From: an uncultured Fibrobacter sp.
GTDB taxonomy: Bacteria > Fibrobacterota > Fibrobacteria > Fibrobacterales > Fibrobacteraceae
Direction of reading: 5' to 3'
NCBI RefSeq assembly: GCF_947166265.1
Contig: NZ_CAMVDO010000016.1
Location: 1-64,000 of the forward strand
Length of the DNA: 64,000 nt
Part shown: piece by piece, positions 15,247 through 39,937 of the stretch
Layout: each line of letters starts with the position of its first letter
Numbering within the stretch: position 1 is the first letter of the stretch
Notes under the pieces: model-generated
What the model was told of the DNA's origin: nothing
The model's input: the letters and a program-made list of their open reading frames with translations, nothing else
Database searches by the model: none
Made by a program: the position numbers and the translations under genes

Positions 15247-15930
15247 ATGAATTTTTTGATGACAAAGATGAAGTCCTTGCGGAATTTGAAGGCCCCTGCC
15301 TGCACTGAGCATGGCCGAAGTGAGCTTGCCGAAGGGCTGCGATTGTTCCTTGGCGCATTTTTGTTACTCTTTTTAGTCGCCTGTCACAATACGCATCAGG
15401 TGCCGGGGACGACTCCTGTATATTATTCCGATGACCGCGCCGTTTCGCTGTTGTCGACATCTGCGATGACCGAAAGCATTGACATGCCGCAGCATATTGC
15501 CGGAAAATTCAGGAAACCCGACGGAACGACCGATTTGTTTGAGGCGGATTCCTGGGTAAGGGCGAACGACAGCATTTTATCGATTGTGCTTTTTTCGGGT
15601 TTCGGAACAACCATCGGCGAAATTAGCTACTACCGCGATTCCGTAAAGGCGGAAAGTTCTCTGATCGATGTGGAAAAGCTGAAGGCGGAATACATGCTTG
15701 CCGACTTTCAGGTCTGTTTTTATCCGTTCGAAGCTCTTCGCCAAAATTTTGAACAGGCCGGATTTGATTTTTCCGAGACTCGCACCGGTTCCCAAAATAC
15801 GGATTTTGTGCGTACGCTCGCCGAAAAGGGGGTGACGATTGCCGTTGCCCGCAAGAATGGAAACGAAATTGAATTTGTAAACGAACTGCGCGGTTACAGT
15901 TACCATATTACGTTAGGAGATGCAAATTGA
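15247..15930 (+). CDS. Lipoprotein of the pigment cluster, DUF3261-like, with repeat-derived N-terminus
   Basis: The product has a hydrophobic stretch and lipobox LFLVAC followed by about 180 residues that resemble the DUF3261-type lipoproteins accompanying MMPL exporters in aryl-polyene clusters. Oddly, the N-terminal 50 residues before the lipobox include a copy of the dispersed palindromic repeat (15302-15337), which encodes the polar stretch CTEHGRSELAEG just ahead of the hydrophobic core. No good ribosome-binding site precedes the ATG at 15247; a TTG further on (about 15343) follows AAGGG and would remove the repeat-encoded residues, so the true start is unsure. The stop overlaps the next TTG start (TTGA). 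Confidence 0.75.
   Translation: MNFLMTKMKSLRNLKAPACTEHGRSELAEGLRLFLGAFLLLFLVACHNTHQVPGTTPVYYSDDRAVSLLSTSAMTESIDMPQHIAGKFRKPDGTTDLFEADSWVRANDSILSIVLFSGFGTTIGEISYYRDSVKAESSLIDVEKLKAEYMLADFQVCFYPFEALRQNFEQAGFDFSETRTGSQNTDFVRTLAEKGVTIAVARKNGNEIEFVNELRGYSYHITLGDAN
15302..15337 (+). repeat. Dispersed CTGAGC…GCCGAAGG repeat inside the lipoprotein gene
   Basis: The sequence contains CACTGAGCATGGCCGAAG and GAGCTTGCCGAAGGG, the same words found intergenically at 60478-60500, 62634-62660 and 30240-30260. Here it is read in frame without a stop, placing a charged peptide in the signal-peptide region. Confidence 0.7.
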
Positions 15931-17123
15931 GAAAGCCCTTGTATATTAACGACTTTGCTTTTCACTGCATTTTGGGGGGCGAAAAGGAATCGGTTTTCGA
16001 TAAATTAAAGAATGGCGTCCGTGGCGAATTCACCACCTACGATGTAGCGGGTGTGATGCGCCCTGCCGCGACAATCGATCCTGCGACTTTAGCTCCGGTG
16101 ACGGAACCTGGCTTTGATAACCGTGTAAACAGGCTTTCGCAGGCGGCGCTTTCGCAGATGGAAAAGTCGATCGTTGCTGCTATTCAGAAATATGGCGCCG
16201 ATCGCATAGGCATATTTATCGGGTCTTGCGACAATGGCTCCGAAGCATCGATGAATGCTCTCAAGAGTTTTAAGGAAACGGGGGCTTTTCCCGAAGGTTA
16301 TGTCCTAGATTATCAGGCGGCAGATTTTCCGGCGCGTTATATTGCAAAGCGTTATGGCATTACGGGAATGCTTTCGGTGCATTCTACGGCGTGTGCCTCC
16401 AGTGCGAGCGCTTTTGTTTCTGCCCGCAACAATATTTATGCCGGTAACTGTGATGCGGCTATCGTGGGCGGTGTCGATATCGCTTCGCAGTCGGTGATTC
16501 TGGGCTTTGCCTCGCTCGAGGCCATGTCCGATAAGCCGACGAATCCGTTTAGCGCAAACCGTACAGGCCTTACCCTTGGCGATGCGGCGGCTTTTTTCCT
16601 GGTGACTCGCGAAAATTTACCGGACCTTGCAACCGAAGACTGCAAGAATCTTTCGGTGGTGGGCTTTGGCGAAAGTGCCGATGCAGACCACATCACGGCT
16701 CCCCGCGCCGATGGCGAAGGGGCTTTCCTGGCGATGAAAGCCGCCCTTGCCGATGCAGAACTCGATGCTTCTTCGATTGGCTACGTTAATTTGCATGGAA
16801 CAGGAACTCGGCTGAACGATTCCATGGAAGCGATCGCCGTGAACCGTCTGTTCGGTGAAAATACACCGGCAAGTTCCACGAAGGCGCTGACGGGACATAC
16901 TCTTGGTGCGGCTGGTGCACTGGAAGCTTCGTTCTGCTGCCTTGCGCTCCAGAATAGGGGCGTTCTTCCGGCGCATCTGTTCGATGGATGCGAAGACCCG
17001 AAACTCCCGAAGGTTCACCTGGTCAAGTCGGGAGAACAGGCAACGGAGCCCTTCAAGTATTGTATCAGCAACTCGTTTGCTTTTGGCGGTTGCAACGTGT
17101 CTTTAATTATCGCGAAGGAATAA
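15927..17123 (+). CDS. Beta-ketoacyl-ACP synthase (aryl-polyene ketosynthase A)
   Basis: This is a full 398-residue ketosynthase with the nucleophilic Cys in STACASSASA (near residue 155), the first His in NLHGTGT (near 290) and the second in GHTLGAAG (near 322). It would condense malonyl-ACP units onto the aryl starter. The start is a TTG: AGGAGA at 15915-15920 lies 6 bases before it and it overlaps the preceding stop as TTGA. A second ketosynthase gene lies at 18355, and the half-length chain-length factor is on the divergent arm, so the cluster has the usual three ketosynthase-family proteins. Confidence 0.92.
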   Translation: MRKPLYINDFAFHCILGGEKESVFDKLKNGVRGEFTTYDVAGVMRPAATIDPATLAPVTEPGFDNRVNRLSQAALSQMEKSIVAAIQKYGADRIGIFIGSCDNGSEASMNALKSFKETGAFPEGYVLDYQAADFPARYIAKRYGITGMLSVHSTACASSASAFVSARNNIYAGNCDAAIVGGVDIASQSVILGFASLEAMSDKPTNPFSANRTGLTLGDAAAFFLVTRENLPDLATEDCKNLSVVGFGESADADHITAPRADGEGAFLAMKAALADAELDASSIGYVNLHGTGTRLNDSMEAIAVNRLFGENTPASSTKALTGHTLGAAGALEASFCCLALQNRGVLPAHLFDGCEDPKLPKVHLVKSGEQATEPFKYCISNSFAFGGCNVSLIIAKE

Positions 17124-17126
17124 AGA

Positions 17127-17600
17127 ATGAGTACGGTAGAATTTCCGACAAGAGAATTGGTTTCTGAACTGGTTCCGCATAAGGACAAAATGCTTCTGCT
17201 CGACCGGGTTAATTATCATGACCTGAACGAAATTGTGATCGAAACGGAAGTGGATATCCACAAGGACTGTATGTTCTTCAAGGAAGACCTGCAGGGGGTT
17301 CCTTCGTATGTGGCGTTTGAATATATGGCCCAAAGCATTTCTGCCTTGTCCGGAATTTATGGACGTACGCTAGGACAAAAGCCCAAGGAAGGCTTTATCA
17401 TGAGTGTGTCGAACTGCAAGGCCGAAGTCCCTGTTTTCAAGTCGGGAGATGTTGTTCGAATCTGGGTGCACCAGACGATGCGTGTCGACATGGCCGTCAC
17501 CTTTGAGGGCAAGGTTTTTGTGGGTGACAATCTTGCGGTCTCGGCTTCGCTTTGCACAGTCGAAGTGGACGACCCCACCTCGATTCTGAAGATGAATTAG
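17127..17600 (+). CDS. Hot-dog beta-hydroxyacyl-ACP dehydratase of aryl-polyene type
   Basis: The 157 residues resemble the dehydratases of aryl-polyene clusters, with LVPHKDKMLLLDRV (residues about 15-28) and GVPSYVAFEYMAQSISALSG (about 57-76), the central hot-dog helix. It removes water after each ketoreduction and so creates the conjugated double bonds. A second dehydratase-like domain is fused to the ligase at 6146-8482; in characterised aryl-polyene systems two such proteins work together. AAGGAATAAAG lies just upstream of the ATG, 3 bases after the ketosynthase stop. Confidence 0.85.
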   Translation: MSTVEFPTRELVSELVPHKDKMLLLDRVNYHDLNEIVIETEVDIHKDCMFFKEDLQGVPSYVAFEYMAQSISALSGIYGRTLGQKPKEGFIMSVSNCKAEVPVFKSGDVVRIWVHQTMRVDMAVTFEGKVFVGDNLAVSASLCTVEVDDPTSILKMN

Positions 17601-17626
17601 TAGTCTTTTACTATATTTGGGCGCGT

Positions 17627-18355
17627 ATGGAAAATAAGAAGAGTGTTTTGATTACTGGCGCAAGTGGCGGCATCGGTTCTGCCATTGCTAAGGCTGTCGC
17701 ATTGGCGGGTTACGAAGTCGTGGCGCATTACAATAGGAATGCAGCTCCTGTCGAACAGCTTGCAAACGAAATTCGTGAACAGGGGGGCTCTATTCGCCTG
17801 CTTCAGTTCAATATCCGCGACCGTGAACAGTGCAAGGCTGTACTTGAAAAGGATATCGAAGAAAACGGCGTCTATTTTGGCGTGGTGACCAATGCGGGTG
17901 TCTGTGCCGATACGGCTTTCCCTGCCATGACCGATGAATATTGGGACAAGGTGATCGACACGAACTTGAATGGCTTTTACAACGTACTTCACCCGATCGT
18001 GATGCCGATGTGCCGCAAGCGTCGTGGACGCATCGTGACGATTTCGTCGGTGTCGGGGGTTATCGGTAACCGTGGCCAGGTGAACTACAGTGCTTCCAAG
18101 GCGGGGCTCATTGGGGCGACCAAGGCTTTGGCAACAGAGCTTGCTAGCCGTGGCATTACGGTGAACAGTGTCGCTCCGGGTGTCATCGAAACGGAAATGA
18201 TCAAGGATGCTCCGCTCGACATGATTTTGCCCGCTATTCCGATGAAGCGCGTAGGTAAACCCGAAGAAGTAGCCGCGACGGTCGTGTTCCTGCTTTCGGA
18301 AGGGGCCGCCTACATCACACGTCAGGTGATTTCTGTGAATGGGGGACTTGCTTAA
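17627..18355 (+). CDS. 3-oxoacyl-ACP reductase, short-chain dehydrogenase family (FabG-like)
   Basis: This 242-residue protein has the NADPH-binding GASGGIGSA (residues 12-20), NAG near 90 and the catalytic triad Ser (ISSVSG, about 141), Tyr and Lys (YSASK, about 153-157). It reduces the beta-keto group after each condensation. The frame is open upstream to a GTG at 17552, but that would overlap the dehydratase gene, and the family start matches MENKKSVLITG, so I use the ATG at 17627. Its stop overlaps the next start as TAATG. Confidence 0.92.
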   Translation: MENKKSVLITGASGGIGSAIAKAVALAGYEVVAHYNRNAAPVEQLANEIREQGGSIRLLQFNIRDREQCKAVLEKDIEENGVYFGVVTNAGVCADTAFPAMTDEYWDKVIDTNLNGFYNVLHPIVMPMCRKRRGRIVTISSVSGVIGNRGQVNYSASKAGLIGATKALATELASRGITVNSVAPGVIETEMIKDAPLDMILPAIPMKRVGKPEEVAATVVFLLSEGAAYITRQVISVNGGLA

Positions 18356-19578
18356 TGCGCCGTGTCGTTGTTACGGGTGGATCTTGTATTTCTTCGCTTG
18401 GCTTTGATGCCGATACCGCTTTTGAAGGTTTGAAGTCGCTTAAGAACCGCGTGGTCCGTATGGACGCTTGGGATGTCTATAAGCAGATGAATACGCGCCT
18501 TGCCGCTCCGATTCTTGAACCGTTGCCGCAGTATCCGCGTAAGAAAATTCGCGGGGCAGGCCGTGTCGCGGTGATGGCACTTCTTTCTGCCGACAAGGCT
18601 CTTGAAGTGGCTGGCCTTACGGGTGAAACCGACCTGATGAAGTCGGGCCGTATGGGGGTTGCCTATGGTTCTTCTATGGGAAGCATCAACCCGTTGCTCG
18701 AATTTTTCTCGATGCTCAACACCTATGACTGCTCCAATATCACGGCGACAACCTATATTCGCGCCATGCCGCAGACTTGTGCGGTGAACATCAGTGTGAT
18801 TCTTGGACTGACGGGACGTCTGGTGACGACGAATACCGCATGTACGAGCGGAAGCCTTGCAATCGGCCAGGCGTATGAACTTATCAAGTACGGTAAGCAG
18901 GACGTGATGATTGCGGGCGGCGCCGATGAACTCGACCCGACGGAATCGGCTGTTTTCGACACGCTGTTTGCGACCAGTACCAAGAACGATCATCCGGAGC
19001 TTTCTCCGGCGGCCTATGACAGGGACCGCGACGGTCTTGTGATTGGCGAAGGTGCGGGAGCCCTGATTCTTGAAGAGTACGAACACGCTAAGGCTCGCGG
19101 TGCAAAGATTTATGCGGAACTGGTCGGCTTTGGTTCCAACACCGACGGTGAACATATTACGCAGCCCAAGAAAGAAACCATGCAGCATGCTCTCGAATTG
19201 GCAATCGAAGATTCGGGAATTTCTGCCGATGCTATCGGTTACGTGAATGGCCACGGAACGGCGACGCACCACGGTGACATTGCCGAAACCTGGGCCACTT
19301 ATAACGCTCTCAAGCAGCGCACGGTTCCCCTTTCCAGCCTCAAGAGCTATGTCGGTCATACGCTTGGTGCCTGTGGTGGAATCGAGGCCTGGCTTGCCAT
19401 TCACATGATGAACCGTGGTTGGTTCAGCCCGAACCTGAACCTGAACAATGTGGACCCCGAATGTGCTCCGCTGGATTACATCATGGGGAGCGGCCGCGAA
19501 ATGGACGTGGAATATATCATGTCCAACAACTTCGCCTTTGGCGGAATCAACACGTCGCTCATTTTCAAGCGTGTCTAA
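18355..19578 (+). CDS. Beta-ketoacyl-ACP synthase (aryl-polyene ketosynthase B)
   Basis: The 407 residues form a complete ketosynthase: active Cys in NTACTSGSLA (about residue 163), NGHGTATHHGD near 299 and YVGHTLGACGG near 331. It is closer in style to the FabF family than the other ketosynthase of this cluster. It may start the chain on the aryl acid or catalyse the repeated condensation together with the chain-length factor; the sequence alone does not say which. It is the last gene of the rightward pigment operon and is followed within 25 bases by a strong terminator. Confidence 0.93.
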   Translation: MRRVVVTGGSCISSLGFDADTAFEGLKSLKNRVVRMDAWDVYKQMNTRLAAPILEPLPQYPRKKIRGAGRVAVMALLSADKALEVAGLTGETDLMKSGRMGVAYGSSMGSINPLLEFFSMLNTYDCSNITATTYIRAMPQTCAVNISVILGLTGRLVTTNTACTSGSLAIGQAYELIKYGKQDVMIAGGADELDPTESAVFDTLFATSTKNDHPELSPAAYDRDRDGLVIGEGAGALILEEYEHAKARGAKIYAELVGFGSNTDGEHITQPKKETMQHALELAIEDSGISADAIGYVNGHGTATHHGDIAETWATYNALKQRTVPLSSLKSYVGHTLGACGGIEAWLAIHMMNRGWFSPNLNLNNVDPECAPLDYIMGSGREMDVEYIMSNNFAFGGINTSLIFKRV

Positions 19579-19599
19579 ACTCCGTTCTATTTTGAATTG

Positions 19600-19632
19600 A
19601 AAAGCGCTCCGAGGAAACCTCGGAGCGCTTTT
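19600..19632. terminator. Strong bidirectional terminator ending the pigment operon
   Basis: A 15-bp stem (AAAAGCGCTCCGAGG and its complement) with an AAA loop ends in a T run on both strands. It separates the pigment operon from the convergent purine permease gene. Confidence 0.9.
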
Positions 19633-19652
19633 GTTGTATAGGAAATCGGCGG

Positions 19653-21137: not shown

Positions 21138-21184
21138 TTTTCTTCCTTCTTATTTACTTTGTAATATAAGAATTTTCGAACATA

Positions 21185-21372
21185 GTCATGTCGAAGAACA
21201 AGGTTGGTGCGCCTGTCGAACCAACCCTATTGTCATCCCGAAGACCAAGATTGGTGAGCCTGTCGAACCACCTCTCTCGTCATCCCGAAGACCAAGGTTG
21301 GTGAGCTTGCCGAACCACCTCTCTCGTCATCCCCGCGAAGGCGGGGATCCCTCAATCCGCTTTATCAAGCAG
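21185..21372. repeat. Four tandem copies of a 47-bp palindrome-bearing repeat
   Basis: Units beginning GTCATsyCGAAG recur at 21185, 21232, 21279 and 21326, exactly 47 bases apart. Each contains a version of CAAGRTTGGTGAGC…TGYCGAACCA, the same words dispersed elsewhere in the window. The last unit ends in GTCATCCCCGC…GCGGGGATCC, a perfect hairpin. Its right end provides the stop codon of the radical SAM gene. Confidence 0.9.
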
Positions 21373-22239: not shown

Positions 22240-22254
22240 AATTTCCTTTGTGAA

Positions 22255-24699
22255 CTAAACTCTTCCGAAACGGCGGGTTTTGCGGAAGGGTTTATCGCCA
22301 AAGCTACGCTCGTCGTGGTCTTTGTGGAAACGGTCTTCTTTCTTGCCGAATTTCTTGTCACCGAACATCTTTTCGCGGCGGGCCTTGCGGTTTTCGAAGG
22401 GCTTGTCGTCGAAATTTTTGCCGTGGCGGTCACCGAAGTCCTTGCGGCCTTCACCGCGGTGGAAACTGCGGCGGTCTTCGCGGCTGGCTCGCGGGCGGGT
22501 TCCGGGAGCGGGGCCGGTCGGCGGCTCGTCAGTCATCAGGCGGAACCTAGATTCGTTCCCGCGGATAGTCATGTCGGCGAGAATGTCGAGGACTTCTTGC
22601 GGCATGGTTTCGGGGAGTTCCACGGTGCTGAACTTGTCGAACAGCTTGATGCGTCCGATGTTGGAACTGCTGATGTTACCTTCGCCGGCGATAGCGCCTA
22701 CGATGTCTCGCGGCGTCACGTGGTCGCGGCGGCCCACGCCCAGATAATAGCGCAGGTAGCCTTCTTCGACGCCGTTCGCGCCTTCGTTGCGTTCCTTGCG
22801 GAGTCGGCTCTTTTCTTCGCGGTCAAGGCCAAAATTATCATTGCGTTCGCGGCGTTCACGCGGAGCGTCAAGCGGCTTGAGTTCCGGGAACAGCGGCTGT
22901 TTCTTCTGCCAAATCTTGATGACGGCGGCGGCGATGTCGATGGCGGTTAATTCTGGCACTTCGGCTGCTTCCAAGGTCCCTGAGCTCTGTCGAAGGGCCG
23001 AACCATCGGCGACCATGCTTTCCACGAGTTCCTTGAACTTGTCGAGTTCGCCGGTGGTAATGACGCTCTTGATTTTATCCTTGAAGGCGGCGACGCGCTT
23101 CGCGCTGATGACTTCTGCGGTCGGCAATTCCATCGTTTCGATCGGCTGACGGGTTGCCTTTTCGATAATTTTCAGCATCTTCTTTTCACGCGGGGTGATA
23201 AAGAGGATGGCGTTGCCGCTGCGGCCTGCGCGGCCTGTACGACCGATGCGGTGCACATAAGATTCGGTGTCGAAGGGAATGTCGTAGTTCACCACATGCG
23301 TAATGCGGTCTACGTCGATTCCGCGAGCGGCCACGTCGGTCGCGACGACGATGTCGAGCTTGCCCATCTTGAGTCGGTTGATGGTGCGTTCGCGCATGGA
23401 CTGGGCGAGGTCACCGTTCAGCGGAGCCACGTTGAATCCGCGGCTTTCAAGTTTTTCGGCGACTTCGGTCGTGTTCTGCTTGGTGCGCACGAAAATCAGC
23501 ACACCGTCAAAGTCTTCGCCTTCGAGTACGCGGGCGAGTGCTTCGATCTTGTGTTCGTTCTTTACGAGCAAGTAACGTTGGCGGATGTTTTCGACGGTCG
23601 TCGTCTTGCCTTCGATGCAGGCTTCTTCGTATTCGCCCAAGTGCTGTTCGATAATCTTCTTGACTTCTTTAGGCATGGTGGCGCTAAAGAGGGCGCGCTG
23701 GGCGCTTGCAGGGATTTCCTTGAGGATGGTTTCGACATCTTCCATGAATCCCATGTCGAGCATTTCGTCGGCTTCGTCGAGCACGATTGCCTTTACGCCT
23801 GAAAGTACGATGGAGCCGCGCTTGATATGGTCAATCAGACGACCCGGGGTGGCGACCACGATGTTCGCCTGGCGCTTGAGGGCTCGCAACTGCACGGCGA
23901 TGTCCTGACCGCCGTAAACCGGAACCACATGCACCTTCGGCATCTTGGCGGCGTACTGCTGGATGGCTTCTGCCACCTGGATAGCGAGTTCGCGGGTCGG
24001 CGTGAGCACGAGCATCGAAGTTTCGTGACCGTTGAAGTCGAGCCTCGAAAGTAGCGGAAGCGAGAATGCAGCGGTCTTTCCGGTACCGGTCTGGGCCGTG
24101 CCGAGCAGGTTTCCTCCCTGCAAAAGGGCCGGAATCGCCTTCGCCTGAATGGGGGAGGGCGTCTCGTAGCCCATGGCCTTGATGGCTTCAAGAACTTCGT
24201 CTGCAAGTCCGAGGTCTTCAAAAGTCACCAACGCTTCGTCGGCGGGTTCGTCATCAGAATCGTCTGCAGGCTTGTCGTCAGAATTATCGTTGGAACCTTC
24301 TGCCGATACATCTTCGTTTTCTAAGATGTTGTCATTCTTGACCCCGAATTCAGTTCGGGGGAGGGAATCCATTGTAGATTCAGAAACATCTGCGCAACTC
24401 TTTTTAGATTCAGCGTAATCTTCGTCGTTTTCGTCTTCTTCGGGTTGCTCGGCTTCGCCTTCTTCGAATTCGACCTTTGTGCCGACTTCGATGGCGGACT
24501 GGGGACCCTTCTTGAGCACGTCGCCTTCTTCGTCGACAATCACGCCGTTCGGATTCAGGGTAAGAAACGCGGCTTCATCAGCCTCGTCTTCGTCTGCACC
24601 ACCTGCGATGGCGTTCAAAAATGCGTCAGCTTCGCGGGCAATTTTTGATTTGGGGTCAATAGCTTCTTCGGGAATACGTTCTTCGGTATTCTTCGTCAT
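22255..24699 (-). CDS. deaD: DEAD-box RNA helicase, DeaD/CsdA type, with long acidic N-terminus
   Basis: The helicase core starts near residue 165 and shows AQTGTGKT (about 198), PTRELA, TPGRLIDH, DEADEML (about 305), SATMP (about 336) and HRIGRTGRAGRSG (about 485). A DbpA-type RNA-binding domain follows at about 650-715 and a basic Arg/Asp/Phe-rich tail ends the protein. The first 160 residues are very acidic and low in complexity, which is not usual for the family; total length is 814 against about 600-640. Two dispersed palindromic repeats are read in frame, one in the acidic tail and one in the linker between core and DbpA domain. It would remodel structured RNA, for example in ribosome assembly or in the cold. 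Confidence 0.93.
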   Translation of the reverse strand: MTKNTEERIPEEAIDPKSKIAREADAFLNAIAGGADEDEADEAAFLTLNPNGVIVDEEGDVLKKGPQSAIEVGTKVEFEEGEAEQPEEDENDEDYAESKKSCADVSESTMDSLPRTEFGVKNDNILENEDVSAEGSNDNSDDKPADDSDDEPADEALVTFEDLGLADEVLEAIKAMGYETPSPIQAKAIPALLQGGNLLGTAQTGTGKTAAFSLPLLSRLDFNGHETSMLVLTPTRELAIQVAEAIQQYAAKMPKVHVVPVYGGQDIAVQLRALKRQANIVVATPGRLIDHIKRGSIVLSGVKAIVLDEADEMLDMGFMEDVETILKEIPASAQRALFSATMPKEVKKIIEQHLGEYEEACIEGKTTTVENIRQRYLLVKNEHKIEALARVLEGEDFDGVLIFVRTKQNTTEVAEKLESRGFNVAPLNGDLAQSMRERTINRLKMGKLDIVVATDVAARGIDVDRITHVVNYDIPFDTESYVHRIGRTGRAGRSGNAILFITPREKKMLKIIEKATRQPIETMELPTAEVISAKRVAAFKDKIKSVITTGELDKFKELVESMVADGSALRQSSGTLEAAEVPELTAIDIAAAVIKIWQKKQPLFPELKPLDAPRERRERNDNFGLDREEKSRLRKERNEGANGVEEGYLRYYLGVGRRDHVTPRDIVGAIAGEGNISSSNIGRIKLFDKFSTVELPETMPQEVLDILADMTIRGNESRFRLMTDEPPTGPAPGTRPRASREDRRSFHRGEGRKDFGDRHGKNFDDKPFENRKARREKMFGDKKFGKKEDRFHKDHDERSFGDKPFRKTRRFGRV
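22976..23003 (-). repeat. In-frame dispersed repeat in the helicase linker
   Basis: GGTCCCTGAGCTCTGTCGAAGGGCCGAACC-type sequence (28 bp) matches the intergenic copies near 60475-60500 and 62634-62660. Read on the minus strand it encodes GSALRQSSGT between the helicase core and the DbpA domain. Confidence 0.75.
24331..24370 (-). repeat. In-frame GTCATTC…GAATCC palindrome in the helicase N-terminus
   Basis: The 40-bp element starts GTCATTCTTGACCCCGAA and ends TTCGGGGGAGGGAATCC, with an inner CCCCGAA/TTCGGGG stem. On the gene strand it encodes DSLPRTEFGVKND within the acidic tail. Confidence 0.75.
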
Positions 24700-24926
24700 A
24701 ATGCACCTTCAGGACCCGTAAACTTCATCTGCGGCCCATGCCGCACTATCGAATGGTTCTGGCGCCGGTTGTCCGGCTGAACCTTGAAAAGCCCCGAAGC
24801 GCACTCGCGCTTATAAACCTGAAGTTTTTTGGATCCATTTTGTTGGATTTGCGGCCAAATGTAGAAATAAAGCCCCTTATTTCAAAGGGTCGCAAGATTT
24901 TATTAAGAAAAGGGCTGAATTATGTG
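24700..24926. other. Leader region of the helicase gene, no gene seen
   Basis: The roughly 225 bases before the helicase start contain several GC-rich inverted repeats (for example CTGCGGCCCATGCCGCA and GCGCCGG…CCGGC). It could be a structured 5' leader of the kind seen for cold-inducible helicases, but I see no named riboswitch and no coding frame. Confidence 0.3.
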
Positions 24927-24955
24927 TAGACAACTTTGAAAATATTTGCTAAATT
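24927..24955 (+). promoter_or_regulatory. Promoter of tRNA-Ser
   Basis: TAGACA at 24927-24932 and TAAATT at 24950-24955 are 17 bases apart, and the tRNA begins 11 bases later. Confidence 0.65.
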
Positions 24956-24966
24956 GTGCAAACCTC

Positions 24967-25051
24967 GGAGAGATGCCAGAGTGGTCGAATGGGCCGGTCT
25001 CGAAATCCGGAGTCTGTCACAGGACCGAGGGTTCGAATCCCTCTCTCTCCT
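24967..25051 (+). tRNA. tRNA-Ser (anticodon CGA)
   Basis: The acceptor stem GGAGAGA pairs with TCTCTCC (25044-25050); the T arm is GAGGG-TTCGAAT-CCCTC, and a long variable arm (AGTCTGTCACAGGACC) marks a class II tRNA. The anticodon loop CTCGAAA gives CGA. Two details are odd: the innermost-but-one position of the anticodon arm reads T opposite T (CCGGT/TCCGG), and the base after the acceptor stem is T where most bacterial serine tRNAs have G. CCA is not encoded. The 3' end is copied several times in the DNA that follows. Confidence 0.93.
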
Positions 25052-25053
25052 TG

Positions 25054-25092
25054 AAACGAATAAGGAACCCCTTGTGGGTTCCTTATTCGTTT
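25054..25092 (+). terminator. Terminator of tRNA-Ser
   Basis: A 17-bp perfect stem (AAACGAATAAGGAACCC and its complement) with a CTTGT loop ends in GTTT-TATAAG directly after the tRNA. Confidence 0.88.
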
Positions 25093-25105
25093 TATAAGCA
25101 AAGAG

Positions 25106-25440
25106 GGATGAGAACCCTCGTAGGGGTTCGACAAAACCCGCAAGAGCGAAGCGAATACAGCGGGTTTTGAGATTGCGGTCAAAGACCGCAACCCGGAGGG
25201 CAACAATTGAACGGAGAGAAAATGTTGTCTTATCCCTCTCTCTCCTTGAAACAAAAAGCGGAGCCGTAAGGCCCCGCTTTTTGTTTCATGAAAAAGGATG
25301 AGAACCCTCGCAGAGGGTTCGACAAAACCCGCAAGAGCGAAGCGAATACAGCGGGTTTTGAGATTGCGGTCGAAGACCGCAACCCGAAGGGCAACAATTG
25401 AACGAAGAGAAATTGTTGTCTTATCCCTCTCTCTCCTTGA
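25106..25440 (+). repeat. Two copies of a four-hairpin element ending in the tRNA-Ser 3' end
   Basis: Near-identical units start at 25106 (GGATGAGAACCCTCG) and 25296, 190 bases apart. Each carries four successive stems: GAACCC(TC)…(GA)GGGTTC, AAAACCCGC…GCGGGTTTT, TTGCGGTC…GACCGCAA and CAACAATT…AATTGTTG. Each closes with TATCCCTCTCTCTCCTTGA, identical to the tRNA-Ser 3' end plus following bases. Differences between copies mostly keep the stems paired. No protein-coding frame with a plausible start is seen. Confidence 0.85.
25248..25287 (+). terminator. Second terminator after a duplicated tRNA-Ser 3' end
   Basis: GAAACAAAAAGCGG pairs with CCGCTTTTTGTTTC (25274-25287). It stands in the same position relative to the copied tRNA end (TTGAAAC) as the true tRNA terminator does, although the stem sequence is different. 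Confidence 0.75.
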
Positions 25441-25630
25441 GAGGGGGATGTCAAGCGAAATGAAATGAGCTTGTAGTCCCATCCCTCTCTCGTATTGAGA
25501 GAGGGTCTTTAGCGGCGAAGGAAACGAAGTGACTGAGTCGTCCTATCCCTCTCTCTCCTAGAAGAATGTGGAAGGTGGCAAAGCTTGAAACGAAGTGAAA
25601 GCTTTGTCCTATCCCTCTCTCGTCATCAAT
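25441..25630 (+). repeat. Shorter stem-loop units each ending ATCCCTCTCTC
   Basis: Three further units end in ATCCCTCTCT at 25481, 25545 and 25611. Each contains a short stem around a purine-rich loop such as GAAACGAAGTGA (for example CAAAGCTT…AAGCTTTG at 25579-25606) followed by a GTCCTATCCC-like tail. CCCTCTCTC-GTATT-GAGAGAGGG at 25483-25505 is a perfect hairpin. No gene is seen up to 25670. Confidence 0.7.
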
Positions 25631-25670
25631 TTCCCCTATTTTTTGTATATTCCTATAAAAAGAGGTTCCT

Positions 25671-29127: not shown

Positions 29128-29144
29128 TATAGGTTTCGAAGATA

Positions 29145-29173: not shown

Positions 29174-29188
29174 TTATAGAAGGTTTAT

Positions 29189-30205: not shown

Positions 30206-30384
30206 CCGCGAATTTTTATGCCTGTGAGGTTCGGCCCTTTGCTTCGACAAGCTCAGCACAGGCATAAGCTCAGGGACCTTATCAGCATCCATAGCGGGCA
30301 TTTCCTGTTATACCGCGCGGATTGTCATGCCCGCGTGGTTCGGCAAGCTCACCAACCTTAGCGGGCTTCTTTTAATTGAACAAT
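30206..30384. repeat. Intergenic cluster of dispersed palindromic repeats
   Basis: The gap between galE and topB is built from fragments such as GCCTGTG…GGTTCGGCCCTTTGCTTCGACAAGCTCAGCACAGGC (30221-30264), AAGCTCAGGGACC, GTCATGCCCGCGTGG and GGTTCGGCAAGCTCACCAACC. The same words occur at 15302, 21185-21372, 31966, 60436 and 62615. No gene is seen. Confidence 0.75.
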
Positions 30385-33315
30385 TTATTTCTTGTTGATG
30401 ACTTCAACGGTTAGCTTGTTGAAGCCTATCTTCCCATCTTCGCGGATTTCGAGGGCGGCGCGGAATGTCGTCTCGTTTTTCTTGAACGGTTCAAGTACGG
30501 CTGTAAACTTGTTCTTCAGGAGCCCCTCGACTTCTTCGTCGCTGAACTTGCGCTGATAGAAAATTTGCGGAATTCCGTAGCCGCATTGCGGGTTCATGCA
30601 AACGTAGGCGGCATGCGTCTCGTTGCCGGAATTTTGCGGCGTGGTGCCGCTGCGGAAACGGAGTTGGTCTCCGCAGATAGGGCAGGGGAGGTTCCTGTGT
30701 GCAAATTCGAAAACGGCGCGCCCCTTGTCGTTCCCGGTACCCCACTTGAGGCGTGCGGCGAATTCGGTGCCTTTCTTGCTCTTGAAATCTTGAATGAGCG
30801 GTGTTTCGCCGTTGGTGAAAAGTTCGCCAATTTCGGTGGCGGTCAGGGCGTGACCTGCAACGGTCTTGAACAAAGTAAAGTTGCAATCGCCCTCATTTGT
30901 CATCCCGGCCGTAGAGCCGGGATCTCTAGTTGCAGTACAGAATATTGCGTTCTTGTTTTCTTCGAGGATTGCGCCGCATAGCGGACACTTGTATTCCGTT
31001 TTCTGACCGTGGAACTTGCCGTCGCTTTCGAATTCGAAGTTGATGTTGTAATCCTTGTCGACGGTAAGTTTCGCCGAAAATTCAGTTCCTTTCTTGCTCT
31101 TGAATCCGCTGAGCGGTCCTACGTGACCTTCGGCAAGTAAGTTTCGCATTTCGCTGTGAGAAAGCATGCGGCCTGCCAGGGTGTGCCCAATCTTAAATCC
31201 GCAATCTGCGTTCTTGCACACGTAGCCCCATGGGGCTACTTCGAGCGCGCCCCCGCACTTGGGGCAGTTGATCGCTTCGGTTACGGTTTCGCGCTCGAAC
31301 TGGCAACCGTACCGCGCGTGCAAATCGGCAAAGAGCTGCTTCACGTATTCCACAATTCCGTCGCGGAATTCCACCGGCGTAAGCGTTCCCTTTTCCACCT
31401 GCGAAAGCTTGTATTCCCATTCGCCGGTCATCTCGGGGGACTTTACCTTTTCGTCCATGAGGCTGATGACTTCGCGGCCTCGGGCGGTACTTACCAGGTA
31501 GTTCTTTTGCGCCTCGATAAAGCCGCGCTTCTTGAGGGTCTCGATGATTCCCGCTTGCGTGGCTGGCGTTCCGAGCCCGCGGTCCTTCATGGCTTCGGCG
31601 AGTTCTTCGTTTTCAATCTGCTTTCCTGCCGTTTTCATCGCGGCAAGGAGAGTTGCCTCGGTGTAGTACTTGGGCTTGCTCTTCTTTTTCTTTTGCAGCT
31701 CGATGCTATCGAAGGGGGAGTGGTCTCCTTCTTTCCATTCGGGGAATGTCTCGACCACGTTCGTGATATCGTCGCCGTCACCCTTGCCTTCAGCTGCGGC
31801 TGTTGCGCCACCATCTGTCATTCCGGCCTCCGAGCCGGAATCTCCCTTTTTTTTCTTCTTTCCCTTCGCTTCTTCTTTGACGATGGCGCGGAATCCTAAA
31901 TCTTCGTTGCGCTTGAGTTTCAATCGGAATAGGTCTGGATCCTTCGACTTCGCTGCCGCTTTGTCGTTCACTTCGGCAGGCTCAGTGAACTTTACTTCTT
32001 GACTTCCGGCTTCCGAATTATCGCCTCTCGTTTCTAACACCACCTCCATCTCGTTCCATACGTACGGCTTGAGCCATGCCTGTACAAAACGTTCCTTGGC
32101 GAGGTCGTAGATCTTCTGCTCCATTTCGGGGAGCCCGTTCGGCGTTTCACCCGTCGGAATAATGGCAAAGTGGTCCGTTACTTTGCTTGAATTGACAAAG
32201 ACGAAACTTTCGTTTGCGTCACGCATCACGCCCTTTTGTTCTGGTGTCGCGAGCTTTTGCGCAAGGGCGTAGGCTTCTTGCTGCATCGTGTCGGGCAGGT
32301 ACTGCGAATCGGTACGCGGATAGGTGAGCAATTTCTTTTCGTACAAGTTCTGTGCGCAGTCCAGAACCTGCTGGGCGCTATACTTGAAACGCTTGTTGCC
32401 CTCTTTCTGCAACTCGGTCAGGTCGAAGGGCTTTTGCGGAAACTGCTTCTTTTGCTGCGTGTCAATTTTGACGATGGTGGCTTCGGCGGGAGGGCTGCAC
32501 CGTGTAACGACTGCATTCGCTTGCGCCTCTTTTTCGAATACAGCAACTTTGAGATTGCTTTGCTCGCCTTGCTCTTTCGCCTCTTTTTTCTCGTCTTTAC
32601 TCTCGCGTCTGACAAGTTGCGCCTGGAACCCTTTCCACATTCCCAAGACACTATAGTAATACAGTTCCTTGAACTGCTCCACCAGGGCGTCGCGTTCTAC
32701 AATCAGGTTCAGGGTCGGGGTCTGTACGCGCCCGACAGAAATCATCTTGCCGCGTCCGGCCGTGAGGGTGTAGGCGCGGGTGGCGTTCAGGCCGACCATC
32801 CAGTCGGCACGCTGCCGAAGTCTTGCCGCATAGCTCAGGTTCACACGCTGGGTGGCGTCTTCCAGGTTTTTCCAGGCCTTGTCCAGGTCCTTTGCCACGT
32901 AGCTGTTCACCCATAGGCGCTTGATCGTCTTTTGCTTGAAGGCGGGGGTATAGTCCAGCACCAGGTCGAAAATCAGGTTACCTTCGCGGCCGGCATCCGC
33001 TCCGTTCACAAGAACGTCTGCCTGTTCCATCATCTGGCGCACCACGGCGAGCTGCTTCTTGGTGCTCTCGATTTCCATCAGCCGGAATTTTTCGGGCAAA
33101 AGCGGCAGGTTCGAAAGTCTCCAGCCTCCTTCGTACCCGGGGTAGGCGTCCAGCGGCGCAAGCGTAATCAGGTGACCTACGCACCAAGTGATGCAGTGGT
33201 TCTTTCCGATTAGGCATCCGTCGCCCTGGGTGAATTTTTCCCCCTCGATGCGCTCGAGCATCGGACGGTAGTGCTGGTTGGCGACAGAGGGCTTTTCTGC
33301 AACAAGCAAAATCAC
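30385..33315 (-). CDS. topB: DNA topoisomerase III with three zinc-ribbon/repeat units at the C-terminus
   Basis: The 976-residue type IA topoisomerase opens with the Toprim domain (LVAEKPSVA, then GADAGREGNLIFD near 103), continues through GRVQTPTLNLIV near 200 and has the active-site Tyr in LLTYPRTDSQYLP near 333. The C-terminus carries three zinc ribbons (CPKCG…C…C, CPLCG, CPICG) alternating with three copies of a FKSKKGTEF-type crypto-Toprim repeat. It decatenates DNA in the cytoplasm. Three dispersed palindromic elements are read in frame, one of them between two zinc ligands. The start codon of topB overlaps the stop of the small upstream gene (ATGA-like), so the two are coupled. Confidence 0.95.
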   Translation of the reverse strand: MILLVAEKPSVANQHYRPMLERIEGEKFTQGDGCLIGKNHCITWCVGHLITLAPLDAYPGYEGGWRLSNLPLLPEKFRLMEIESTKKQLAVVRQMMEQADVLVNGADAGREGNLIFDLVLDYTPAFKQKTIKRLWVNSYVAKDLDKAWKNLEDATQRVNLSYAARLRQRADWMVGLNATRAYTLTAGRGKMISVGRVQTPTLNLIVERDALVEQFKELYYYSVLGMWKGFQAQLVRRESKDEKKEAKEQGEQSNLKVAVFEKEAQANAVVTRCSPPAEATIVKIDTQQKKQFPQKPFDLTELQKEGNKRFKYSAQQVLDCAQNLYEKKLLTYPRTDSQYLPDTMQQEAYALAQKLATPEQKGVMRDANESFVFVNSSKVTDHFAIIPTGETPNGLPEMEQKIYDLAKERFVQAWLKPYVWNEMEVVLETRGDNSEAGSQEVKFTEPAEVNDKAAAKSKDPDLFRLKLKRNEDLGFRAIVKEEAKGKKKKKGDSGSEAGMTDGGATAAAEGKGDGDDITNVVETFPEWKEGDHSPFDSIELQKKKKSKPKYYTEATLLAAMKTAGKQIENEELAEAMKDRGLGTPATQAGIIETLKKRGFIEAQKNYLVSTARGREVISLMDEKVKSPEMTGEWEYKLSQVEKGTLTPVEFRDGIVEYVKQLFADLHARYGCQFERETVTEAINCPKCGGALEVAPWGYVCKNADCGFKIGHTLAGRMLSHSEMRNLLAEGHVGPLSGFKSKKGTEFSAKLTVDKDYNINFEFESDGKFHGQKTEYKCPLCGAILEENKNAIFCTATRDPGSTAGMTNEGDCNFTLFKTVAGHALTATEIGELFTNGETPLIQDFKSKKGTEFAARLKWGTGNDKGRAVFEFAHRNLPCPICGDQLRFRSGTTPQNSGNETHAAYVCMNPQCGYGIPQIFYQRKFSDEEVEGLLKNKFTAVLEPFKKNETTFRAALEIREDGKIGFNKLTVEVINKK
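30899..30925 (-). repeat. In-frame GTCATCCCGGC…GCCGGGATCT palindrome inside a topB zinc ribbon
   Basis: This 27-bp palindrome encodes DPGSTAGMT on the gene strand. It sits between the last two cysteines of the second zinc ribbon, which are 17 residues apart there but only 4 apart in the other two ribbons of the same protein (CKNADC and CMNPQC). Confidence 0.85.
31817..31843 (-). repeat. Second in-frame GTCATTCCGGC…GCCGGAATCT palindrome in topB
   Basis: The element is 27 bp long, like the copy at 30899, in the same orientation and reading frame; it encodes DSGSEAGMT against DPGSTAGMT there. It lies in a low-complexity KKKKGDSGSE…TAAAEGKGDGD linker. Confidence 0.85.
31936..31990 (-). repeat. 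Third in-frame repeat in topB (GGATCCTTCGACTTCG + GTTCACTTCGGCAGGCTCAGTGAAC)
   Basis: The right half (31966-31990) has perfectly complementary ends GTTCACT/AGTGAAC around CGGCAGGCTC. The left half matches the intergenic word ATCCTTCGACTTCG at 62624. Together they encode KFTEPAEVNDKAAAKSKDP, an insertion-like stretch in the topoisomerase linker. Confidence 0.7.
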
Positions 33316-33935: not shown

Positions 33936-34152
33936 CTTGGCCTATTATTTAGAAATTTGGCGCCTAAAAAAGAGAAATTGAACGGAAATGTTCCGGCGTT
34001 GTTACAAATTGGGGCATCCTGGATCACGCTAAATTGTCTAGGGGGCTTTTTTAACAGAATTTTTCAATTTTGTCGTTTTATAAAGGGCTTAAAAAGGTGT
34101 ATATTTAGGAACGTATGTTCTTAACCTATCTTTAGGTGTGGAGATTGATTTT
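33936..34152. other. Divergent intergenic region upstream of the fibro-slime gene
   Basis: The region holds an AT-rich stretch with TATATT at 34100-34105, about 48 bases before the chosen start, as the best -10 candidate; no good -35 box stands 16-18 bases before it (TTTATA at 34077-34082 at best). No gene or clear hairpin is seen. Confidence 0.35.
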
Positions 34153-36927: not shown

Positions 36928-36942
36928 TTCTAGAAAGTATCG

Positions 36943-36981
36943 AAAAAATCCCGCAGGTATCTAAACCTGCGGGATTTTTTT
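36943..36981 (+). terminator. Terminator of the fibro-slime gene
   Basis: AAAAAATCCCGCAGG pairs with CCTGCGGGATTTTTT across a short AT-rich loop, 16 bases after the stop. Confidence 0.9.
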
Positions 36982-37016
36982 GATAGGGCTCGTTTGACGC
37001 GATAAGAGGGTCCTAA

Positions 37017-37123
37017 GTCATCCTCGACCAACTCTGGAGCGTAGCGATAGAGGCGGGAGGGGATCCATCAAAAATCTTCTACCTGGATTCCGTCGGTCGT
37101 TCCTCCCTCCAGGATGACCGCAT
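37017..37123. repeat. Long palindromic intergenic repeat (GTCATCCTCGACC…GGATCC, then inverted)
   Basis: GTCATCCTCGACCAACTCTG…GGAGGGGATCC at 37017-37066 has a close inverted match at 62749-62798. It is followed by GGATTCCGTC…CTCCAGGATGAC (37086-37120), so the whole gap reads as an imperfect inverted repeat. Confidence 0.75.
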
Positions 37124-37134
37124 CTAGCTACTTC

Positions 37135-38541
37135 CTACTGTTTACGGCCGATAAGGGCGAAGGGTTCCGCAGAAGTAATCGTGACAGTGAATCTTTCGCC
37201 CGGAATAAGCGGTGTTTCGCTGGTGATGGCGACGGGGCGGTAGGCGGCGTTCCGGGCAATGTAGGAGCCCTTGCGGTAGCCGGGCTTTTCGACGACGACG
37301 GTTTCGGTGGTTCCTACCCAGCGGGCGTTGTTTTCTGTGGCGATTTTTTGGAAGGCTTCGGCAAGGGCAGCGGAGCGCTCGTGCTTGATGCTGTCGGGAA
37401 CGGCGCCTTGCATATTAAAGGCGGGGGTATTCGGGCGGGCCACGAAACGGGTAATATTGCAGACTGTCGGGCGGGTCTTTCCGAGGATATCCAAGGTGTC
37501 TTGAAAGTCCCGCTCGGTTTCGCCGGGGAATCCGACGATGAAGTCGGTGCTGAGCGTGAATAGCGGAAATCTGCTGCAGAAGGCTTCGGCGAGGTCTACA
37601 TAGTCCTGGGCAGAATGCTTGCGGTTCATCGTCTTGAGGATTGCTTCGCTTCCGCTCTGCACAGGCAGATGGATGAACTTATAGACGCGCTCGTCCTCGA
37701 AGCATTTCAGGAGCGCGTCGGTGTAACGCAACATGTGCCGCGGATTACCCATGCCAAGGCGCATCTTGTAGTTGCCGGGAACTTCTGCTAGAATCTGCTC
37801 CACAAGTTCGGCGAGGTTCGTGCCCGTATCGAATCCGTAGCAGCCGCAGTCCTGTCCGGTCAGCTGGATTTCGACGCAACCGTCTGCAACGAGGCTCTTG
37901 ACCTGTTGCACGATATCTGCGGCAGGGTAGCTGTGCAAGCGGCCTTTCACGAGTCTTGTTGAGCAATAGGCGCAGGCATCGAGGCAACCTTCTTCGATGT
38001 TCACGATGCCCACCAGCGACGATTCTCTGAGGGGGGCGTCATTGCGAGCCCCATGAGGGGCGCGGCAATCACTAGCAAACAGTTCCTTTGGATTCGTCTT
38101 GTCATCCCCGCCTTGCCAATAGCCACTTGCAGCTTTGCTGCTTAGTGGATATGGTCCTCGGAACGGGGAAACAGGAATCTCCTTTCCTTGTTGCAATAGT
38201 TCCTTTAAACTTGTAAATACAGCTTTATCAGTAATCTTCGCGACTTCTTCGCGGAAATCTTTGGGCGCACAGCCCGTAATAAAAAGACTCGCCTCTGGGG
38301 CCGTGCTCATAGCTTCGCGTAACAGCTTTAAGGCGCCTGCGTTTCCCTTGACCGTGCAGACGTTTAGCACAAAGGCCGCGGGCTTCTCGGCGACATTGCT
38401 ACCAGCCGTTTCCTTGGGCATTCCAAAAATGATGCGGTAATCATTCGCAAAAATGCGGGCGATCTTTTCACCGTCGCCAAAGTTCGCTGCGCAACCTTGG
38501 CTAATTACGGCAAGTAGCGGCTTTTCGTTGGTATAGACCAT
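37135..38541 (-). CDS. MiaB-family tRNA methylthiotransferase, MtaB/CDKAL1-like
   Basis: The 468 residues have the three methylthiotransferase parts: an N-terminal UPF0004 domain with cysteines in SQGCAANFGD, NVCTVKG and FITGCAP; a radical SAM domain with CLDACAYC near 184 and LTGQDCGCYG near 235; and a C-terminal TRAM-like part. The CTVK and TGQDxGxYG wording is closer to the archaeal/eukaryotic type that thiolates t6A37 of tRNA than to bacterial MiaB. The linker between the first two domains is enlarged by about 45 residues that are made of dispersed repeats. The gene starts 4 bases after the SpoIID gene stop. Confidence 0.85.
   Translation of the reverse strand: MVYTNEKPLLAVISQGCAANFGDGEKIARIFANDYRIIFGMPKETAGSNVAEKPAAFVLNVCTVKGNAGALKLLREAMSTAPEASLFITGCAPKDFREEVAKITDKAVFTSLKELLQQGKEIPVSPFRGPYPLSSKAASGYWQGGDDKTNPKELFASDCRAPHGARNDAPLRESSLVGIVNIEEGCLDACAYCSTRLVKGRLHSYPAADIVQQVKSLVADGCVEIQLTGQDCGCYGFDTGTNLAELVEQILAEVPGNYKMRLGMGNPRHMLRYTDALLKCFEDERVYKFIHLPVQSGSEAILKTMNRKHSAQDYVDLAEAFCSRFPLFTLSTDFIVGFPGETERDFQDTLDILGKTRPTVCNITRFVARPNTPAFNMQGAVPDSIKHERSAALAEAFQKIATENNARWVGTTETVVVEKPGYRKGSYIARNAAYRPVAITSETPLIPGERFTVTITSAEPFALIGRKQ
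38036..38181 (-). repeat. Composite in-frame repeats in the methylthiotransferase linker
   Basis: GCGTCATTGCGAGCCCC…GGGGCGCGGCAATCAC (38036-38072) is a palindrome of the widely dispersed CGTCATTGCGAG type and encodes SDCRAPHGARNDA. GTCATCCCCG at 38101 with an inverted CGGGG at 38164 and an inner GCAGCTTTGCTGC form a second element. Neither introduces a stop. Confidence 0.7.
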
Positions 38542-38545
38542 CTGC

Positions 38546-39937
38546 TTACCGGTCGAATTTTTCCAAGGTGATTCCCTGGTAGTAGTGGCTCAGAATTTCC
38601 TGGTAACTCTGCCCGGCCTGGGCACGAGCCCGCACTCCCATTTGGCACATGCCCACGCCGTGCCCGAATCCTGTTCCCGTCAGTACCCATTCCTTGCCTT
38701 CTTTTTTCACGGTAAAGAATGAGGAGGGGAGGATGGTGCCGGCCTTCTTGAAAAGCCAGCGGGTACGGTCGGTCAGCACATCGAAATGTCCCTTATCCGT
38801 TTCAATGCGGAGCGTCATGATGCGTCCGCTTTTAAGCTTGTCTTTCACCTTGATGGATTTGACTTTCTTGAAATCCTTCCCGTTCGCGTTGCTGAAGGTC
38901 GCTTTGGCCTCGGTCACGTTCGCCTTAAAAAGTTTTGCGATTTCTTTGTCCGTAAAGCGGCGCTCCCACTTGGTGTAGCTGGATTCGTCGCACCAGGGCT
39001 TTCCATTCGGGCGCCTGTCTTCGACTGATTTTAGGTAAGGAAGGTCTGCGCGGTTCCAGGTGGCAAGCGTTTCGGTAATGCCCCCGCAGGTGGAATGGTA
39101 GTAGGCGATGATGAATTCTCCGCCGTAGGTCATCACGACGCCTGCGGTCGCCTTGACGGCCGCATCGGTCAAGGGCGTTGCCGATTCGAGTCCCTTGTAG
39201 ACCTGATCCTTGGTGTCTGCGTAGACGTCGAAGCCGACTGCCTCTCGGCTGTTGAAATGCTTGTATGCGTAGGTGCGAGCGGCCACGGCCTGCGCCTTTA
39301 GGGCTTCGATACGGCTGCTGTCGAGTTTTCCGATTTCGTAAGGTACGACTCCACGCAGGTAGTCCTCCACATCGACCGAATTGATGGCGTCCAGCTTGCC
39401 GTTTGTGTTGCGGAACAGGATGCTTCCGGGGTAACATGCTCTGCCGAGGGTTTTCGTGTCTGGAGCGACCGCGAGGCAGGCTCCCTCTTCGCTGTTGAAT
39501 TCGCGTGAAATGTCTTCGGTCGAATTGTCTCCGGTTTCGAACTTGACTTTGTTCTTGGTGGCTGTCACGTGGACGGTTTCGCCCTGGTATTTAAAGTAGA
39601 GTTCCTTGACTCCCGTAAAAATCCCTACGCGAAGCGGCCGGTTCAGTTCTTCGGGAATCCGGTGTTCCTTGAATGCCGCCGGCTTGTCTTGATTCGTTTC
39701 TTCTGTCATCCTGGAGCCACTGCCGTGGCGACGGGATCCATCAAGAGAATCTTCTCGGACTTGTTTCGGGATCTCCTTTTTAGAAGAATCGGTTGTCCCG
39801 GTCGTAGTCGTTTCTATCGGTATAAAACGCATGACCTCCGTACTCTGCACGTCATCGGGTAAGTCAAAATCGTCGTCTGCTATTGCAGCCGAAAATCCGA
39901 TGAAAAATGCTAGAATAGGTGAAAGTCTGAAATGCAT
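38546..39937 (-). CDS. Secreted SpoIID/LytB-domain peptidoglycan protein
   Basis: A signal peptide (residues 1-20) and a low-complexity linker lead to a SpoIID domain from about residue 95: VDVEDYLRGVVPYEIG, LKAQAVAARTYAY, YHSTCGGITE and GTGFGHGVGMCQMGA-like GVGMCQMGVRA near the end. SpoIID relatives are lytic transglycosylases that trim peptide-free glycan strands, or amidase enhancers. In a Gram-negative it would act in the periplasm in cell-wall turnover. The linker contains an in-frame dispersed repeat (39705-39739). The gene is followed closely by the methylthiotransferase gene. Confidence 0.9.
   Translation of the reverse strand: MHFRLSPILAFFIGFSAAIADDDFDLPDDVQSTEVMRFIPIETTTTGTTDSSKKEIPKQVREDSLDGSRRHGSGSRMTEETNQDKPAAFKEHRIPEELNRPLRVGIFTGVKELYFKYQGETVHVTATKNKVKFETGDNSTEDISREFNSEEGACLAVAPDTKTLGRACYPGSILFRNTNGKLDAINSVDVEDYLRGVVPYEIGKLDSSRIEALKAQAVAARTYAYKHFNSREAVGFDVYADTKDQVYKGLESATPLTDAAVKATAGVVMTYGGEFIIAYYHSTCGGITETLATWNRADLPYLKSVEDRRPNGKPWCDESSYTKWERRFTDKEIAKLFKANVTEAKATFSNANGKDFKKVKSIKVKDKLKSGRIMTLRIETDKGHFDVLTDRTRWLFKKAGTILPSSFFTVKKEGKEWVLTGTGFGHGVGMCQMGVRARAQAGQSYQEILSHYYQGITLEKFDR
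39705..39739 (-). repeat. In-frame GTCATCCTGGAG…GGGATCC element in the SpoIID linker
   Basis: The 35-bp element encodes GSRRHGSGSRMT on the gene strand; its GTCATCC/GGGATCC ends match those of the intergenic elements at 37017 and 62749. The bases after it (ATCAAGAGAATCTTCT) also resemble the ATCAAAAATCTTCT that follows the copy at 37066. Confidence 0.75.

Follow-up and report, generated by a model that had tools for sequence, protein, structure and literature searches.

Short repeats within genes of the window

The window, the whole 64,000-nucleotide stretch analysed here (G000:C16:1-64000), belongs to a genome of 3.77 Mb in 89 contigs (96.8% complete), which we assign to Fibrobacter because named Fibrobacter records align to the window and to neighbouring contigs at up to 86% identity; the region of its topoisomerase III gene, topB, is aligned by Fibrobacter sp. 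Tb.RUG.359 at 78-82%. Our subject is a set of short, mostly palindromic repeats that lie in frame inside protein-coding genes of this window. A preliminary description, made from the sequence alone, had placed such repeats at nine positions in at least five genes and had supposed, in agreement with these alignments, a Fibrobacter source. Repeat words or close variants were found at 9/9 of these positions, and the enclosing open reading frames (ORFs) stay open through all of them. The accompanying claim that the repeats never create a stop or a frameshift holds to that extent and is in part a tautology, since the genes had been read as open frames to begin with; the in-frame effect itself is real, because repeat peptides recur in the same loops of other species.

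At least four unrelated palindrome families (A, B, C and D) are intermixed here, together with a heptamer tandem repeat (E). Family A reads GTCATYCYCGC..GCGRGRATC and is near the CGTC-1 repetitive extragenic palindrome (REP), family B reads GTCATCCTGA..TCGAAGGATC, family C has a TTCGRCARGCTCA centre with variable complementary arms, and family D reads GTCATTGCGAG..GCAATC. The heptamer, (ACGAGAG)n, is read as DERRETR peptides and acts like the palindromes in some loops. The host genes (with the evidence for each) and the repeats found in them are as follows.

22255-24699, minus strand: deaD, DEAD-box RNA helicase with a DbpA domain, two in-frame repeats (Pfam, orthologues)
22972-22998: family C variant (CCCTGAGCTCTGTCGAAGGG) in deaD, coding for part of ALRQSSGTLEAAEVP; the linker is shorter in sister species
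24331-24370: family A-type palindrome in the acidic N-terminal tail of deaD, coding for STMDSLPRTEFGVKNDN
30385-33315, minus strand: topB, DNA topoisomerase III, three inserted regions with four repeat words (Pfam, PDB alignment, orthologues)
30899-30926: family A palindrome in topB, coding for DPGSTAGMT, in a loop of a C-terminal Toprim_Crpt repeat
31817-31844: family A palindrome in the topB linker, coding for SGSEAGMT; a repeat word is there in 19/30 orthologues
31936-31992: family B 3' end (GATCCTTCGA) and family C hairpin GTTCACTTCGGCAGGCTCAGTGAAC in topB, coding for KFTEPAEVNDKAAAKSKDPD
37135-38541, minus strand: mtaB/miaB-like gene, radical-SAM methylthiotransferase with an expanded linker between its UPF0004 and radical-SAM domains (Pfam, orthologues)
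38038-38070: family D palindrome GTCATTGCGAGCCCC..GGGGCGCGGCAATC within the mtaB linker
38101-38182: long composite family A palindrome in the same mtaB linker, missing in G005 and other sister species
38546-39937, minus strand: spoIID-like gene, carrying one in-frame repeat, which lies behind the signal peptide in a low-complexity segment (Pfam, orthologues)
39705-39739: family A palindrome in the spoIID-like gene, coding for DGSRRHGSGSRMT; absent from the sister genome G036
15302-15340: palindrome of family C type, within the N-terminal extension of a DUF3261 ORF (15247-15930)

Eight of the nine copies thus fall within four conserved genes (deaD, topB, mtaB/miaB-like and spoIID), which are firm as hosts, having Pfam domains and, in the orthologues, conserved sequence on either side of every insert. 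The positions given earlier as 38036 and 38101 share one 50-residue mtaB linker. The fifth gene is doubtful. The copy at 15302 probably lies upstream of the true DUF3261 start and would then be non-coding, because in most relatives similarity to this ORF sets in no earlier than residue 29, either where its conserved lipoprotein signal peptide starts or farther in; residues 17 and 21 are the starting points of two weaker matches (44-46% identity).

Loops that differ from species to species

We compared five genes across about 30 Fibrobacter genomes per gene. Repeat words are concentrated in the parts that vary in length, with 197 in 68.7 kb of length-variable linker as against 29 in 248.8 kb of conserved core, a 25-fold difference in density that agrees with the earlier placing of the inserts in linkers and loops. 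That description had also named its own refutation test, the lack of any length polymorphism among orthologues; polymorphism was found, in length as well as in presence or absence.

The mtaB linker, located between two Pfam domains, ranges from 7 to 57 residues, and its 30 orthologues hold 30 distinct sequences, with different repeats filling it in different species. The 50-residue insert of our genome is missing in G005, and the close relative G036 has another A-type peptide (ILDPGV..GSRMT) there. Among 30 topB orthologues, repeat words stand in one loop in 14 and in each of two others in 19, and every one of these loops has 28-30 distinct sequences; the region at 31936-31992 is the second hotspot of this gene, with repeat words in 19/30. 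Alignment to E. coli topoisomerase III covers two stretches of topB (query residues 2-423 and 522-662), and the two middle inserts fall exactly into the gap between them, which has 98 residues as compared with 38 in the E. coli enzyme. One topB orthologue (L125, from G006) has more than 100 residues after residue ~250 that are nearly all stacked repeat-derived peptides.

A further host, hrpB (G000:C4:133428-136208; L086:13428-16208), came from a genome-wide hit, and its three loops hold repeat words in 10, 22 and 16 of 30 genomes. The first loop has 64 residues between residues 139 and 203 in our genome, whereas G003 and G010 join these two points almost directly. One of the hrpB repeat loops lies between helicase motifs of the first RecA-like domain. 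The repeats in these hrpB loops, like those in the topB loops, change with almost every species. Not every site is such a hotspot, because the spoIID linker, which also varies in length, holds repeat words in 2/30 orthologues only. The STMDSLPRTEFGVKNDN insert of deaD is common, among the aligned relatives, to G036 only. Outside these genes, the ArsP_1 permease at C1:52974 has a clean 39-nt in-frame insert relative to G005, at a low-complexity site and flanked by a possible 8-nt duplication (TCGCAGCA). Judging from these alignments, nearly every Fibrobacter species appears to bear its own repeat-derived peptide in shared loops of housekeeping proteins.

We consider it likely that unrelated families of short palindromes insert widely, that selection leaves in-frame copies in tolerant loops, and that these copies turn over independently in each lineage. 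On this account several unrelated palindrome families, with units of 20-80 nt, would multiply within Fibrobacter genomes and enter them at numerous sites, and selection would remove most of the insertions within genes. The survivors would be those of frame-keeping length with a stop-free frame, encoding a polar, disordered-type peptide in a surface loop or linker that tolerates a change of length. The loops of topB, hrpB, mtaB and deaD would then serve as permanent landing sites where each lineage, independently of the others, acquires repeats, piles them up, wears them down and loses them. The copies may move at the replication fork in the form of folded single strands, with no transposase dedicated to them.

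Copy number, spread and proposed copying of family C

The family C core TTCGRCARGCTCA has 207 copies in our genome and its reversed control none; CCCTGAGCCTGCCGAAGGGC, at up to 2 mismatches, has 129 copies, again with none for the control. With at most about one match per strand estimated by chance for a 13-mer, a chance origin of the repeat words is excluded. Gene location, frame and strand were counted over 1.62 Mb of the genome (1126 called genes, 84.9% coding). Of 97 family C copies counted there, 31 (32%) lie in genes, spread over 23 of them; the in-gene counts for the other families are 14/69 (A), 8/53 (B) and 5/15 (D). Were insertion random, 85% of copies would fall in genes, and the repeats are therefore depleted there, about twelve-fold in odds. 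Sorted by open frame, the 31 in-gene copies of family C comprise 14 x-EPAEG, 9 SAGS/STSS, 5 RQAQ, 3 SLSKG and no FDKL/FGRL. This uneven use (chi-square p = 7e-4 over five open frames, n=31) is a result of moderate weight in favour of selection on frame, the test having been run after the frames were seen and copies that share a gene not being independent. Among the orthologues of other species SAGS/STSS is the commonest family C frame, and one FDKL copy is present.

The closest species compared hold 9-37 copies of family C and others of the genus 1-74, as against 207 here; these counts show a recent amplification of the family in our genome. It is also widespread. The exact 24-mer GGCCCTTCGRCARGCTCAGGGACC occurs in at least five named phyla, and the matches listed include Microbacterium, Plantibacter and other Actinomycetota, Bacteroidales, Treponema and Fibrobacter, as well as one Gemmatimonadota genome and one genome of a candidate phylum (UBP14). 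Among these matches, then, family C is exactly common to Fibrobacter and to Bacteroidota, Actinomycetota, Spirochaetota and Gemmatimonadota, and the suggestion of a single element family proper to Fibrobacterota falls on this point as well as on the presence of several unrelated repeats. The sequence of family C is printed in no paper among the literature searched, and may be described elsewhere.

Two further observations concern its surroundings. The 19-mer core of family C also turns up on IMG/VR viral contigs, in at least 120 stretches (L370-L449); these could be true phage carriage or host flanks, and a phage route between phyla is possible. In Fibrobacter sp. Tb.RUG.359 (L259, 3154-5294) a family C repeat at 3496-3519 lies at a synteny breakpoint relative to our contig C6 (26769, 24232).

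The arms of family C covary. Its outer arms include CCC/GGG, TGG/CCA, CAC/GTG, TGC/GCA, CGC/GCG, CGG/CCG, CGT/ACG and TTC/GAA, several of which recur in other phyla, and the outer 3-bp stems are paired in 85% of cases compared with 52% in shuffles. The covariation score is 0.787 against 0.268 when shuffled (0/500 shuffles reach it), and the signal is lost when the partner is slid by 1-3 columns. Family C is also oriented with respect to replication, whose direction we took from GC skew: 70/97 copies lie on the C-rich strand, compared with 53% for a composition-matched null from an intergenic control (p = 1.5e-4), and 63/89 do after close copies are merged (p = 9e-4). The bias also holds where the direction of genes offers no explanation for it, in gaps between divergent or convergent genes and next to genes on the lagging strand (25 vs 9, p = 0.02), and it rests on one genome. 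Families A and B are oriented opposite to C (48/69 and 35/53). Such an orientation is what strand-specific copying at forks would give.

From the invariant centre, the covarying arms, the identity of the 24-mer across at least five phyla and the replication-strand orientation, we tentatively propose that family C is a hitherto undescribed mobile palindrome, one that host machinery copies at the replication fork without a transposase, and that together with the other families it keeps rewriting loops in those housekeeping enzymes of Fibrobacter that act on nucleic acids. Taken as a whole this proposal is rather unlikely to hold. A competing possibility, doubtful but to be taken seriously, is that the repeats are REPs moved in trans by a REP-associated tyrosine transposase (RAYT) or another Y1 transposase of the IS200/IS605 type. 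This would replace the host machinery and is compatible with the turnover of the loops. Palindromic covarying stems and a strand bias fit the transposition of single-stranded hairpins, and TnpA_REP does bind single-stranded REP hairpins in a strand-specific way (PMC8266576). Against it, our genome, at 96.8% completeness, has no intact Y1 transposase, only a single 87-residue Y1_Tnp remnant that is not flanked by the repeats studied here, and a search of our genome and 100 others gave no support for a RAYT/Y1 transposase as the mobiliser. Nor does Y1_Tnp presence follow the number of family C copies: G032 (74 copies) and G093 (69) are without it, G009 (3) and G066 (1) have it. Across 80 loci from several phyla no recurrent gene adjoins the family C repeats, the best cluster being found in 5 loci. 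With no family-specific transposase found in our genome, the 100 others or the 80 loci, the earlier suggestion of an unknown mobilising factor stands. An IS200-like TnpA fragment at G000:C29:22489-22662 (L009) lies beside unrelated GC-rich hairpins, not beside the repeat families studied here.

Several points weigh against the turnover of loops and fork copying as we have described them. Insertion itself is read from comparison, no event having been observed, and with relatives 80-95% alike the exact boundaries of inserts are seldom readable. The host genes were chosen because our genome bears inserts there, which biases the choice of genes, though not that of the other 29 species. The possible 8-nt duplication at the ArsP_1 insert is not predicted by a single-strand HUH mechanism. 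In other phyla, loci of 8 kb give no signal of a family C strand bias, local skew being a weak guide at such loci. Finally, the canonical family C element by itself is a weak hairpin and not unusually stable, and because of this family C may instead be recognised as a duplex inverted repeat.

Relation to known repeats, and other features of the window

The resemblance to Rickettsia palindromic elements (RPEs) noted in the preliminary description is sound, closer than was supposed there, and had been anticipated. CGTC REPs were defined by Di Nocera, De Gregorio and Rocco in 2013, who placed RPE-4, RPE-6 and the Neisseria dRS3 repeat among them (PMC3733652). Copies inside genes are reported, many of these in genes for replication and repair; no transposase is dedicated to the repeats, and the list of five phyla given for them does not include Fibrobacterota (PMC3733652). 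Their marks are a terminal CGTC (or TGTC, CCTC) tag, a stem of 8-9 bp that opens with AT pairs, a loop of 4-5 nt, an unpaired CCA tail and mostly head-to-head dimers. Family A, near CGTC-1, is like them in its tag (TGTC 19, CGTC 6 and AGTC 1 of 26, where GTC was fixed by the search pattern and the preceding base free), in its 8-bp stem starting with AT (also part of the search pattern; typically ATCCCCGC-GAAG-GCGGGGAT), in its loop (4 nt in 23, 5 in 1 and 6 in 2 of 26), in its copies within genes and in having no dedicated transposase. It differs in its tail (CTC 10, CTT 8, CCA 0 of 26) and in that adjacent A-A pairs lie head-to-tail, no head-to-head dimers being seen. Because the CCA tail is absent, we describe family A as CGTC-1-like and not as a full CGTC REP. 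Family C and the heptamer repeat are not CGTC REPs at all.

Like RPE-4, RPE-6 and RPE-7, the Fibrobacter repeats are short in-frame palindromes in surface regions of unrelated housekeeping genes, with an ATGAC end motif, and like RPEs in general they show presence/absence or length polymorphism. The kinship is drawn by description, from the CGTC REP placement and the ATGAC motif (PMC3733652, PMC3767692), not from sequence homology. Unlike RPEs, they comprise several unrelated families in the same loops, with near-empty sites in sister species, and their host is a gut bacterium rather than an obligate intracellular one. High copy number and a palindromic, hairpin-like, non-autonomous nature are shared with GTAG REPs and REPINs with their RAYT; in contrast to these, the consensus has no GTAG end and no RAYT gene flanks the repeats or correlates with their number. 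Mobile repeats fused in frame are also known as intragenic enterobacterial RU/ERIC elements (Delihas 2007, PMC2759123) and as other prokaryotic miniature inverted-repeat transposable elements (PMC10969869), which are 100-170 bp long, whereas the Fibrobacter units measure 20-80 nt and return in the same loops throughout the genus.

The study of R. japonica left open whether the RPE-4/6/7 sites are hotspots or single insertions that diverged, and reported that neighbouring positions of one gene hold different RPE groups (PMC3767692). That each site received a single ancient insertion, which then diverged, the reading favoured for those elements (PMC3767692), is improbable in Fibrobacter. A part is inherited, as seen in inserts common to sister species: MDSLPRTEFGV in the DeaD of our genome and G036, and in topB GDSGSEAGMT in the same two genomes and GDPRSEAGMT in others. 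On the other side, the same loop is filled by unrelated families (A, C, D and the heptamer E) in different species and is empty in sister species, and the amplification of family C is recent. At hrpB loop 1 the near-empty sites of G003 and G010, set against the 64-residue insert, already contradict a single ancient insertion. Since unrelated families share loops and sisters have near-empty sites, we favour hotspots with repeated insertion.

It is still less probable that the peptides are functional additions selected in each protein. Inserts do recur in nucleic-acid enzymes (topB, deaD, hrpB, ftsK), and Di Nocera et al. noted repair genes elsewhere; against this, nearly every species has peptide sequences of its own (28-30 distinct among 30 per main loop), the peptides stem from unrelated repeats and several frames, and their sites are domain linkers. 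That the repeats are intergenic, with ORFs open through them by chance, is hardly credible for topB, mtaB, deaD, spoIID and hrpB, where conserved sequence stands on both sides in one frame across ~30 species, although such misannotation is probably true of the DUF3261 site and of family C copies within ~13 codons of a called start.

What is new here is the phylum, the way in which several families turn over at shared loops, and family C with its replication-strand bias; the Rickettsia-type phenomenon is thereby found in another phylum, with a rapid turnover that had not been shown so clearly before. With dozens of species-level genomes, orthologue sets, and near-empty beside full sites, Fibrobacter makes the question of relic or hotspot directly testable, and its data point to recurrent insertion. 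The loops also form a natural catalogue of insertion-tolerant positions in topoisomerase III, HrpB, DeaD and MtaB-type enzymes, and it becomes a question by what means CGTC-like and family C palindromes, which have no known transposase, are copied.

Between the genes of the window the families likewise nest within one another and form mosaics (60442-60545, 62604-62798), the main intergenic features being:

21185-21348: array of three 47-nt units with family C cores, with a canonical family A palindrome at its end
30242-30359: family C palindromes downstream of topB
37017-37067: long A-type palindrome, with an inverted copy at 62748-62798
60442-60545: family B element that encloses a nested element of family C
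62604-62798: mosaic of families B, C and A

The known RNA families within the window are two tRNAs only. Downstream of the tRNA gene at 24967-25051, the region 25023-25635 contains several partial copies of a 47-nt unit resembling the 3' end of this tRNA (..CCCTCTCTCTCC) and includes a 126-nt direct duplication at 25124/25315; the partial copies are possibly remnants of integrations at the tRNA.

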